DNA of 64,000 nucleotides from Lentilactobacillus otakiensis DSM 19908 = JCM 15040 (GTDB lineage: Bacteria > Bacillota > Bacilli > Lactobacillales > Lactobacillaceae): NCBI RefSeq assembly GCF_001434145.1, contig NZ_AZED01000004.1, forward strand, positions 1-64,000. The letters run 5' to 3'. This document shows positions 45,500 through 58,598 of the stretch, piece by piece; position 1 is the first letter of the stretch; every line of letters begins with the position of its first letter. The notes under the pieces were generated by a model. It was not told the DNA's origin, made no database searches, and saw only the letters and a list, made by a program, of their open reading frames with translations. The position numbers and the translations under genes are program-made.

Positions 45500-45915
45500 G
45501 AAAGTACCTCTTTTCATGCTTAATTATTCTTGAAGATATTACAATCCAGTATAGCAAATATTTGTGGGAATGGCGATGTGAATTGGATTTGTGGGCAGCT
45601 TTGAATTTTTTATAATTGGATTCTTTTGGTGTGTTATGAATGCGGCGATGACCCGGATGTTAAGCTTTCAGGCCAACTTGGCAAAAATTCGAGTTGTTTC
45701 ATCACTGTTACCTAGCCATAACGTGCTCCGACGCAACTGACGCTAACATATAAGTTACTCCGAATTTAAATTCACAACCGGGATTCACATTTACCTAGCC
45801 ATAACGTGCTCCGATGACCCAGATGCTAACTTCTAAGGCAACCTTGGTAAAAACCCAAGCCCTGGGTTTCCACCAAGGTTGCCTTAGAAACCGCATCTCC
45901 CGGGTCTCGTCGCAC
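45500..45915. other. Intergenic region metG-DUF72: promoter and hairpin-repeat array
   Basis: Minus strand TGCTATACT (45548-45556), an extended -10, is the likely metG promoter. The rest, from about 45640 on, holds one full copy and two decayed parts of the long hairpin element described separately. No gene is visible. Confidence 0.6.
45645..45790 (-). repeat. Two decayed partial copies of the 3' hairpin element
   Basis: On the minus strand, after the full copy, two further stretches match only its distal half. One (about 45709-45790) ends with the same 24 bases as the full copy: 45709-45732 is identical to 45791-45814. The other (about 45645-45708) keeps the inner arm around TTGCCAAGTTGGCC and the outer arm. 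All three face the same way, so they look like a tandem array in decay. Confidence 0.7.
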
Positions 45916-45917
45916 TC
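45795..45917 (-). repeat. 3' hairpin element, copy A (after DUF72)
   Basis: Perfect 18-bp stem (45831-45848 with 45872-45889), then an internal loop and an AACCCA/TGGGTT stem (45852-45857 with 45863-45868). Outer arms GATGC/GCATC extend it. The proximal end reads GAGTGCGACGAG on the minus strand and overlaps the DUF72 stop; the distal end reads GGAGCACGTT. Same build as copies B and C. Confidence 0.85.
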
Positions 45918-46764
45918 AAAACAAATCCATCTGCACCGGCGACAAACCGCCAAATTCAATTCCCAGCATCTTTTTAAGCTGCAAAGCATTATCGGCCGCA
46001 TCTCCGCCACTGTTATTGTTGAAAATAACGCAGACCTCCTTGGCTTTCTCATCCAAATCAGCGACCACTTTGCGGAATTCTTCCAGTTCTTCCTTCGAAT
46101 ACCGATAAAGCGTTCGTTTACCCCGCCAATCCGCCGAGTGTTCCGTCCAACCCTTCACGTTTCTACCATGCAGCCTTAGCAATGCCAAATCATCATTAGT
46201 AACTAATGGCTCAAACGGTACCCCCGCGTTTGTGGTATGCGGTTCGTCGACCGCCACCATGGTCATCCCCAGTTCCTTAAGATAACCGGCAACATCTTGG
46301 GTGATTTCTTCCCCATACCAGGTGGAATTCCGAAACTCAACGGCCACCGGATAACCTGCCATTAAATTACTAATCCGTCTCAAATACTGAATGGTCGCAA
46401 TACTTCTGGCAAAATATGGTGGAAATTGGAAGAGCACCGCCTTTAGTTGCCCCGTCGTCATAAGTGGTGCAACGGCGCGTTTATAGTTATTAAATTCCAC
46501 AAACCGCTGCTCATTGTCAACCGGGTCAGCACTGCCTTGATCATGCATCGTCATAACCCGGTTGGCTTTTAAGATAAATTGAAAGTTGTCAGGCACCTGC
46601 TTTTGCCAATTTTCCACAACCTCGACTTTGGGGATTGCATAAAACGGCGTATCCAATTCAACAACCGGAAAATAACCACTGTATTCAGTTAAGCGAACCT
46701 TCCGTTTGGCACCATCAATCAGTGAAGGATGATCCGAAAACGTGGTCAAACCAATTGTAATCAA
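45916..46764 (-). CDS. DUF72 family TIM-barrel protein
   Basis: 282-residue member of DUF72 (YecE-like), a TIM-barrel family of unknown activity. VVELDTPFYAIP near residue 34, FILKANRVMTMHDQ near 62, VAVEFRNSTWY near 140 and CVIFNNNSGGDAADNA near 245 are its conserved blocks. TTG 46764, 8 bases behind GGAGG. Last gene of mvaA-EvcA-sirtuin-DUF72; 20 bases after the sirtuin gene. Its stop overlaps repeat copy A. Confidence 0.88.
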   Translation of the reverse strand: MITIGLTTFSDHPSLIDGAKRKVRLTEYSGYFPVVELDTPFYAIPKVEVVENWQKQVPDNFQFILKANRVMTMHDQGSADPVDNEQRFVEFNNYKRAVAPLMTTGQLKAVLFQFPPYFARSIATIQYLRRISNLMAGYPVAVEFRNSTWYGEEITQDVAGYLKELGMTMVAVDEPHTTNAGVPFEPLVTNDDLALLRLHGRNVKGWTEHSADWRGKRTLYRYSKEELEEFRKVVADLDEKAKEVCVIFNNNSGGDAADNALQLKKMLGIEFGGLSPVQMDLF

Positions 46765-46784
46765 TCATCCCACCTCCCAGATGA

Positions 46785-47501
46785 CTAGGCATTGACCTTT
46801 AAGTCTTTGAAGAAATCAACTGCATTTTCTTTCACCATTGTAAATGGAAAACCGAATTGAAGTTGTTCTTCGTTAACTGCAAGCACTTTAGCATTCTGAG
46901 AGCGATAATCAATCAGACCGGCGAACGGATACACCCGCATCGACGTTCCGACAATAACAATTAAATCAGCCTTGGAAACCGCATCGACACTCTTGGAAAT
47001 GGCAACCGGATCAAGGCCTTCACCATACAACACAATGTCGGGGCGCAAAACGCCACCGCAATTTTCATGATACATACTCTTCAGATATTCTTTGTAATCG
47101 ACAGTTTTGTGGCACTTTTGACAATAGACTTTATAAAGGTTCCCGTGAAATTCGACCAAGTTCTGAGTGCCAGCCTTGCGGTACAGACTATCAATATTTT
47201 GGGTAACGACAGTTGCATCCCGTTGCTGCGTAAATTGAGCCTGACGTTCATGGATCACGTTCGGCTTAGCGTCGGGATAATACATGTTTGACTTCTCATA
47301 TTCCCAGAACACTTTTGGCTCATTACGCAGACAGTCGGAACTTAAATAGTATTCGGCCGGCTTATCGGTCTTGTCATTAGTATACAAACCGTTTTTTGAA
47401 CGATAATCAGGAATTCCCGACGCAGTTGAAACCCCTGCACCAGTTAGAAAAACAATTCTTTTCGCGTTATCAAATTCACTTTGAATTTTAGCATCAATCA
47501 T
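46785..47501 (-). CDS. Sir2-family NAD-dependent protein deacylase
   Basis: 238-residue sirtuin. NAD-binding LTGAGVSTASGIPDYRS near residue 19, TQNID near 99, catalytic His in EFHGN near 117, PDIVLYGE near 152 and VGTSMRVYPF near 183. The zinc site has CQKC near 124, but the usual second CxxC reads HENC, so one ligand may be His. The Tyr-x-x-Arg pair of desuccinylases is not seen. Tightly linked to the genes of HMG-CoA reductase, a HELLH protein and DUF72. Confidence 0.92.
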   Translation of the reverse strand: MIDAKIQSEFDNAKRIVFLTGAGVSTASGIPDYRSKNGLYTNDKTDKPAEYYLSSDCLRNEPKVFWEYEKSNMYYPDAKPNVIHERQAQFTQQRDATVVTQNIDSLYRKAGTQNLVEFHGNLYKVYCQKCHKTVDYKEYLKSMYHENCGGVLRPDIVLYGEGLDPVAISKSVDAVSKADLIVIVGTSMRVYPFAGLIDYRSQNAKVLAVNEEQLQFGFPFTMVKENAVDFFKDLKVNA

Positions 47502-47524
47502 TTTAATCCTCCTTTAAAAGTTCA

Positions 47525-57348: not shown

Positions 57349-57387
57349 AGATAATGTAATTAAAAATTTATTAAATTGAGGTATATC

Positions 57388-58365
57388 ATGGTCCATGCAC
57401 TTTGGCGTCAATTTCCACGCATTAATTTAAGATTAATCGCTTTGGAACCTTATTTGTTAAACGCCGTTAACCTTCCAAATCAGCCGATTCACGATAAAAT
57501 CATTGAGTTGTTAAAATCCGGCGGCAAGTTCCTGCGTCCAGGTTTCTTTTACATCTATTCAGAATTCGGCGAAAAAACCGACCCGGCAAAGATCAAAGCT
57601 GGTGCTGCTGCAGTTGAATTGTTGCATGTTGCAACATTGATTCACGATGATGTGATTGACGATTCACCACTTCGACGTGGGGTGAAGACAATTCACACTC
57701 AATATGGCCAAAAAAACGCCATCTACGCCGGTGACTACCTCTTCACGTGTTACTTTACCCAGGTCCTCAAGTCAACCCAGGAACCCGCTGATATGAAGCG
57801 ACACGTTGATGCGATGCAAATCATTTTGGCTGGCGAATTAGATCAGATGAAATATAACTTTAATCAGAAAATGACTGAAGCTGATTATTTCCACGAAATC
57901 ACAGGTAAGACTGCTGAACTGTTTCGGCTTTGTTTCCAGCAAAGTGCCATTGTGACACATGCACCAGCAGAAATCGTTAAGCTGGGCGGCGAAATTGGCC
58001 TGACAATTGGTCAAGCCTATCAGATTCTCGATGATATCTTGGATTACAGTGGTGATCCTCACCAAACCAAGAAACCCGTTTTGGAGGATTTGAAATCTGG
58101 TGTGTATACTTTACCGCTGATCTTTGCAATTCAGCTGGCACCGGATGAATTAAAACCGTTGCTAGATAAACGTGAGAAATTATCCAATGACGACATCGCC
58201 AAAATTCGCAATATTGTCATCAGTTCCGGCGGTCTGGCAAAAGCTGTCGAGTCTGCCGATCAACTGACTGAAAAAGCCGAAACGTTGATTGGGCAATTGC
58301 CTGAGCAGAAATCTAAACGTGATCTTCAGACATTGACACGGATATTGTTAACGCGGAAACAGTAA
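57388..58365 (+). CDS. Long-chain polyprenyl diphosphate synthase
   Basis: Condenses isopentenyl diphosphate into a long all-trans chain. First Asp-rich motif LIHDDVIDDSPLRRG near residue 89; second QILDDILDYSGD near 215; GGKFLRPG near 46. 325 residues resembles the large subunit of heptaprenyl synthase (HepT). ATG 57388 follows GAGG by 6 bases. Its place beside cydABDC suggests a quinone side chain for respiration. Confidence 0.88.
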   Translation: MVHALWRQFPRINLRLIALEPYLLNAVNLPNQPIHDKIIELLKSGGKFLRPGFFYIYSEFGEKTDPAKIKAGAAAVELLHVATLIHDDVIDDSPLRRGVKTIHTQYGQKNAIYAGDYLFTCYFTQVLKSTQEPADMKRHVDAMQIILAGELDQMKYNFNQKMTEADYFHEITGKTAELFRLCFQQSAIVTHAPAEIVKLGGEIGLTIGQAYQILDDILDYSGDPHQTKKPVLEDLKSGVYTLPLIFAIQLAPDELKPLLDKREKLSNDDIAKIRNIVISSGGLAKAVESADQLTEKAETLIGQLPEQKSKRDLQTLTRILLTRKQ

Positions 58366-58375
58366 TTTTATCATA

Positions 58376-58422
58376 ATAAAATGCCACAACCCTTTGGTTT
58401 TTCCTTTGGGTTGTGGCATTTT
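58376..58422 (+). terminator. Terminator of the polyprenyl synthase gene
   Basis: AAATGCCACAACCC / GGGTTGTGGCATTT arms with TTCTGGTTTTT following on the plus strand. Confidence 0.88.
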
Positions 58423-58474
58423 CTGGTTTTTGTGGTGTTTGTGGGGTTTGAATTTGTAGGTGCTCGACTTTTAT

Positions 58475-58598
58475 TTAGCCGAAACGTGTTCCGACGGGTC
58501 TGATGCTAACTTCTAAGCGCGCTTTGACTAAAGTCCAAGAACAGGACTTCAGCCAAAGCACCCTTAGAAACCGCATCAACCAACCCTCGTCACACTCT
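58475..58598 (-). repeat. 3' hairpin element, copy C (overlapping the cydC stop)
   Basis: Stem 58511-58529 with 58551-58569 (three mismatches) plus an AAGTCC/GGACTT inner stem. The proximal end AGAGTGTGA contains the cydC stop codon TGA. Distal end reads GGAACACGTTTCGGCTA on the minus strand. More decayed than A and B. Confidence 0.82.

Follow-up and report, generated by a model that had tools for sequence, protein, structure and literature searches.

What is the ~120-bp hairpin that recurs beside stop codons in Lentilactobacillus otakiensis, and does it matter as DNA, as RNA or as both? The question is raised by a 64,000-nucleotide stretch of the DSM 19908 genome (positions 1 to 64,000 of contig NZ_AZED01000004.1; hereafter the window), in which a preliminary description noted three such elements, copies A, B and C. 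We find that these copies belong to a large family whose hairpin is kept through two-sided base changes and whose left end mostly lies within a few nucleotides of the end of an open reading frame. With roughly even confidence, we read the family as a superfamily of small interspersed repeats, akin to repetitive extragenic palindromes (REPs) and miniature inverted-repeat transposable elements (MITEs), that occurs in many genera of the Lactobacillaceae and would act as a stop-proximal mRNA hairpin.

A large family of bulged hairpins

The element is a bulged hairpin of ~118 nt, corresponding to a repeat of ~120 bp. AGA-GTG plus a helix 1 of ~11 bp leads into a 5'-side bulge of 3-4 nt (GGG, GGTT and similar), followed by helix 2, an internal loop, a long apical helix and, at the far end, CAC-GTTTC. 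Variable bases, often T, precede the AGAGTG left end, and the right end, CACGTTTC, continues into a weakly conserved A/C-rich tail. Subfamilies have ends, bulge and layout in common, with stem letters that mostly differ.

The preliminary description took its three copies for members of a family and proposed a genome search with a covariance model, which does yield many further copies. In the source genome (G000; Lentilactobacillus, 2.35 Mb, 21 contigs), blastn with copy B gives 30 matches, including B itself and its own palindrome. A covariance model built from 26 copies, A, B and C among them (model R1, alignment A1), finds 112 places, antisense echoes included; rerun on 69 loci, it returns 98 matches, reduced to 77 without overlaps and to 74 after removal of three antisense rows. 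A second model, R2, draws on 14 members that are more diverged and come from several species; it finds 94 places, from which nine rows were dropped (one antisense, E 9.4e-7; eight above E 1e-6). Of the 85 kept, 55 overlap the 74 R1 copies and 30 are new, giving a union of 104 places that includes short, deleted copies and leaves out some weak R1 places. Six same-strand pairs among the 104 are tandems. At L068:1155-1631, a four-element array contains a dimer of two subtypes twice.

The family extends well beyond this genome. Under stricter filters, R1 has matches in 20 of 60 relatives, from 4 of 31 genera, and none in 23 genomes from other families of the order. An exact pattern, AGAGTG-N13-KT-N60..90-CACGTTTC, misses most copies (13 matches in the source genome versus 104 places); it nevertheless matches 21 of the 60 relatives, as against 0 of 60 for the reversed pattern. 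Among 301 genomes of the same family, the Lactobacillaceae, it matches 93, spread over 18 of 40 genera; the reversed pattern gives five single matches there, by a count made by eye. One of the 21 relatives, G047, comes from another family of the order and has one exact match, perhaps by chance. Neither R1 nor the pattern matches in seven members of the genus (G001, G002, G007, G015, G018, G021 and G023). No phage match was found, and only one L. buchneri record labelled as a plasmid, so phages and plasmids were set aside as carriers; that record (NZ_CP043613.1:46110-52225, L174) has chromosomal-looking genes (Tex, SprT, thrB) and one element match directly after a coding sequence. Rfam 15 has no family in common with the element at gathering score for the copies searched (the window plus 15 loci), sub-threshold matches being microRNA hairpin models. 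The sole gathering match in the window is an L31-Firmicutes ribosomal protein leader at 26691-26724 (-). We found no description of the element in searches of an open-licence literature library, a scope outside which most subscription papers fall.

Two-sided changes and the folded strand

Comparison of copies A and B confirms the three two-sided stem changes originally reported, adds a fourth at the stem base (GTGC/GCAC versus GTGT/ACAC) and reveals at least one pair changed on one side only (ACCC/ACCT, partner the same). Across the 26 copies of A1, 94.9% of 1168 cells are paired and two-sided changes, amounting to 166 cells, are seen at 27 of 45 pairs, values biased toward pairing because the structure was picked on the same alignment. 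Shuffled alignments average 81.5% paired, 16.6 pairs and 51.2 cells, and 0 of 500 reach the observed values, counts that are not probabilities because the copies are related. When partners are slid by 1-3 columns, pairing falls to 32-44%. Summed over the per-pair table of A1, the 166 two-sided cells compare with 47 standard one-sided and 59 unpaired cells. The kept structure and the excess of compensated over single changes anticipated in the preliminary description are thus both present. In an alignment of 14 diverged members (A4), 94.4% of cells at the basal 18 pairs are paired and 13 of the 18 have two-sided changes, a number that 1 of 500 shuffles reaches. Chance hairpins or an alignment artefact have a negligible probability as an explanation, given that shuffles of A1 never reach the observed pairing and that the reversed pattern is matched in none of 60 genomes and only by the five single matches in 301.

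Which strand folds can be addressed through wobble pairs. If double-stranded DNA alone mattered, G-U and A-C counts should be about equal. In A1, G-U/U-G cells number 98 versus 16 for A-C/C-A, and omission of one nearly constant T-G pair (25 cells) leaves 73 versus 16. As G-U cells outnumber A-C cells, the sense strand is probably the folded strand.

Placement at stop codons

We scored a copy as adjacent to a gene when an open frame of at least 90 codons, start codon not required, ends from -4 to +10 nt of the model start. By this measure, 53 of the 74 sense copies in the source genome abut a frame end. The same procedure gives 5.0% for non-coding window positions (158/3180) and 1.9% for all positions (768/40184), and a null from picked, annotated-like genes gives 8.4%. 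In 23 of the 74 copies, the element's own TAG is the stop of the upstream frame. Stops of the 53 frames are TAG in 32, TAA in 16 and TGA in 5, as against 35 TAA, 15 TAG and 7 TGA for 57 window genes; without the 23, the excess of TAG is gone (TAA 16, TAG 9, TGA 5), and it thus stems from the element. Of the 21 copies with no adjacent frame, five come second in a tandem; several more are antisense to genes or fall in the spaces between them. The upstream proteins resemble ordinary housekeeping proteins, as far as our presumed names for them go. Stop readthrough into the element was considered and rejected, since the offset from stop to element varies and leaves no common frame.

The window copies illustrate this placement. 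A, B and C lie where the preliminary description put them and have the build it gave, with R1 scores of 138.6-142.5 bits that are not independent, as all three are among the 26 copies that built the model. Its claim that copies directly follow stop codons, in the orientation of the gene, stands for most of the 74 tested copies and fails for B, which follows a copy missing from that description, B', in tandem. B' starts at the base that immediately follows the stop codon of the helicase gene. In A and C, the first bases of the element take in the stop codon of the upstream gene. The features concerned are as follows.

45641..45754 (-): two decayed right-half copies downstream of A, at 45702-45754 and 45641-45687; direct repeats D1 (81%) and D2 (77%)
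45802..45918 (-): copy A, subfamily 1; R1 model span 45788-45919, 139.6 bits
45916..46764 (-): DUF72 protein gene (PF01904), upstream of A; its TGA stop is overlapped by copy A
53149..55494 (+): UvrD-type helicase gene (PF00580), which we take to be HelD, upstream of the B tandem; TAG stop at 55492-55494
55495..55614 (+): copy B', subfamily 3; R2 78.5 bits, E 3.7e-23, as a member of the R2 training set (n=14)
55620..55737 (+): copy B, subfamily 1, second in the tandem after B'; R1 model span 55619-55751, 138.6 bits
55790..55828 (no strand assigned): terminator-looking hairpin between B and the converging gene, read by eye; the terminator script was silent for copy B
58482..58598 (-): copy C, subfamily 1; R1 model span 58468-58599, 142.5 bits; includes the TGA stop of the upstream gene
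58590..60332 (-): ABC transporter ATP-binding protein gene (PF00005), presumably CydC, upstream of C

In its best segment, the helicase next to copy B shares 93% identity with Lentilactobacillus kefiri and L. sunkii proteins.

A hairpin that follows genes in sense orientation could be a transcription terminator, or a terminator accessory, that itself forms mRNA 3' ends. The strength of the hairpin would fit this role, as would its orientation, and a part in 3' end formation was among the functions first suggested. It is not borne out: with a crude script, terminator-like hairpins lie downstream of 35 of the 74 copies, about as often as after element-free window gene ends (28 of 54; 78 of 400 for random stretches). 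As this rate resembles that of other genes, ending transcription appears to remain the task of the usual hairpin. Moreover, no long T run after CACGTTTC was found in the copies, and elements occupy both the gap between two genes of the arginine deiminase cluster, presumably arcA and arcB, and the site after arcB, which places some copies between cistrons. We consider a terminator role very unlikely.

The placement instead has parallels among known repeats. REPs of the GTAG and CGTC types likewise occur as numerous scattered palindromes that are believed to fold within mRNA (PMC3733652, PMC12306157), and GTAG ends often supply a TAG stop (PMC3733652). Escherichia coli REPs less than 16 nt from a stop are reported to stall ribosomes, and they can lower translation; within that distance lie 260 of the 496 REPs of one study and 446 of the 4072 of a second (PMC12306157). 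Our hairpin lies less than 16 nt from a stop in 53 of 74 copies, and by analogy it may stall ribosomes as well. The two nonetheless differ. A REP is a palindrome of 20-40 bp, again in the portion cited (PMC3733652), with an unpaired GTAG or CGTC tag, whereas the element spans ~118 nt, has a bulge and an internal loop, and ends in AGAGTG and CACGTTTC. Also unlike REPs with a RAYT, it has no Y1 transposase that we could find in the source genome, although CGTC REPs are likewise described as lacking a dedicated transposase (PMC3733652).

Bacterial MITE-like repeats, including EFAR of Enterococcus, RUP, BOX, SPRITE and NEMIS, resemble the element in size class, in intergenic location and in forming hairpins if transcribed; EFAR is set beside it here by description, not by sequence. 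MITEs have conserved terminal inverted repeats of 15-30 bp. The element has a near-terminal helix of ~14 bp, in which the letters change from copy to copy instead of forming a fixed terminal repeat, and we found no target duplication. Integron attC sites, too, are hairpins with extrahelical bases after a gene; our elements are dispersed after ordinary genes and have different ends. SPRITE repeats are enriched near gene 3' ends, in the section of the source cited (PMC3049150).

Turnover, spread and a possible role at the stop codon

Orthologous sites, read by eye among the species listed here (individual genomes carry G numbers), are kept as places while the subtype of the occupant changes. After the DUF72 gene, subfamily 1 is present in the window and in L. 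sunkii and another type in L. parakefiri, with none seen in the remaining species displayed, L. kefiri and L. parabuchneri among them. Downstream of the ABC gene, subfamily 3 is found in L. kefiri and L. parakefiri and a tandem in L. sunkii, with none in L. parabuchneri. After OTC, matching copies occur in G000 and G008, other types in G011, G016 and G017, little beyond helix 1 in G009, scars in G022 and probably in G005 and G006, and nothing in several others. The arcA-arcB gap contains whole or partial elements in G000, G003, G004, G005, G006, G008, G009, G011, G017, G019 and G020 and a remnant in G022, and is empty in G001, G007, G010, G016, G018 and G021 (G014 is in neither list).

The family has also spread recently in some species, in keeping with the early suggestion of a small mobile unit. 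The 16 copies of G005, at unrelated places, average 90% identity (80-99%) and are short, non-coding, dispersed and similar, as in MITEs; three copies of G004, also at unrelated places, average 95%. In G005, left flanks are not conserved past AGAGTG and right flanks are loosely conserved for ~45 nt. An autonomous, gene-bearing copy was sought in 20 stretches of G005 and G004 that surround left ends lacking an exact right end, and none was found. These stretches contain complete elements whose right end varies, copies with internal deletions or copies in which the left end is duplicated, with no gene between the ends. Two of the 26 copies in A1, L009 and L013 (G000:C1:67993 and C6:204536), are hybrids whose left and right basal arms come from different variants and are mismatched, which suggests recombination between copies. 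Right halves repeated after a full copy occur in G016 (for example, L135-L137 and L140) and in L124 after 12689-12808, as if replication had slipped at the hairpin.

Other structural variants were seen. Two copies, at G000:C4:247304-247438 and C4:189616-189748, have a ~33-nt hairpin module (CCAAGTAGGCTAGGC...GCCGGC) within their 3' basal arm as an insertion; the same module occurs in other species, in L121 downstream of the DUF72 gene and in the arc region of G006. In four copies (G000:C8:14193, C4:23881, C4:13441 and C4:136890), the right end is CATAGCTCAAAAGC...GAGC or similar instead of CACGTTTC.

Much of this behavior would suit purely selfish or neutral repeats, in which case copies would lie after genes because they are tolerated there and paired changes would arise through template-switch repair of the hairpin. 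Patchy presence, decay scars, internal deletions, recent expansions and partial duplications of right halves are all in line with this main rival, which we regard as rather unlikely. First, template correction should erase the asymmetric bulge and the internal loop, yet both are conserved. Second, it should yield no bias of G-U over A-C. Finally, tolerance hardly accounts for 53 of 74 starts within a few nucleotides of frame ends.

Alternatively, the fold could be a single-stranded DNA site recognized by a transposase or recombinase, like the ends of IS200/IS605 elements or REPs or like integron attC, with selection acting on mobility. Such a site would agree with the conservation of both ends and of an extrahelical bulge set at a constant distance from the left one, and with stem letters that are otherwise free. 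The IS200-type Y1 transposase (PF01797) was found in 6 of 23 genus genomes (G005, G011, G012, G016, G017 and G020), all of them element-bearing and two, G005 and G016, with expanded families, as against 0 of 6 element-free genomes; this co-occurrence keeps a Y1-driven origin a candidate. However, PF01797 was not found in the copy-rich G004, G006, G008, G009 and G022, each with at least about 50 R1 matches, nor in the source genome, and old resident copies remain well folded. RAYT/IS200 mobility, set back as the main account by these absences, is retained as a rival that we judge quite unlikely.

We therefore return to the stop-proximal mRNA hairpin. At the level of DNA, the repeats have spread, recently in some species, and left copies whose AGAGTG left end mostly meets or supplies the upstream stop. 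In the transcript, a very stable bulged hairpin of the sense strand would be the first structure after the stop codon, and a terminating ribosome would meet it within 15 nt, so that expression of the upstream gene may be tuned as by stop-proximal E. coli REPs. Alternatively, the hairpin could guard the 3' end of the upstream cistron or mark that end for cutting. We infer that the RNA form may be what selection sees and that it may have an effect on ribosomes or mRNA. The hairpin may also act in mRNA stability or as a protein target, roles raised in the preliminary description. A stronger version, in which the elements are a family-wide class of 3' untranslated region elements working at the stop codon, with a fixed bulged hairpin read by the terminating ribosome or a bound protein, and spread to stop codons while swapping subtypes in place, is in our estimation unlikely.

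Several results weigh against a stop-proximal role. Placement is looser in the expanded families of G005 and G016, where a frame end adjoins 4 of 15 and 6 of 20 copies, respectively (frames cut at edges may lower these numbers), so tight placement at stops is not universal. Absence or decay of the element at many orthologous sites speaks against its being essential. In A4, further pair types are no higher than in shuffles (187 of 500 as high). The difference in folding energy between sense and antisense strands (-12.4 observed, -9.1 in shuffles) is largely a matter of base composition; it was dropped as a strand test, and the strand call rests on the pair counts. With regard to spread, no target-site duplication was seen by eye at the sites compared, in species too distant for clean empty sites, and the source genome lacks a detectable Y1 transposase, PF01797 being the recombinase family searched for.

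Dozens of genes in a single lactobacillus genome, from a family of bacteria known from food and the gut, may end in one RNA fold. If the elements are only selfish repeats, they still raise the question of how repeats that sit at stop codons move with no transposase in view. If, on the other hand, the hairpin adjusts translation termination or the decay of messages, a widespread regulatory layer is missing from current annotation.

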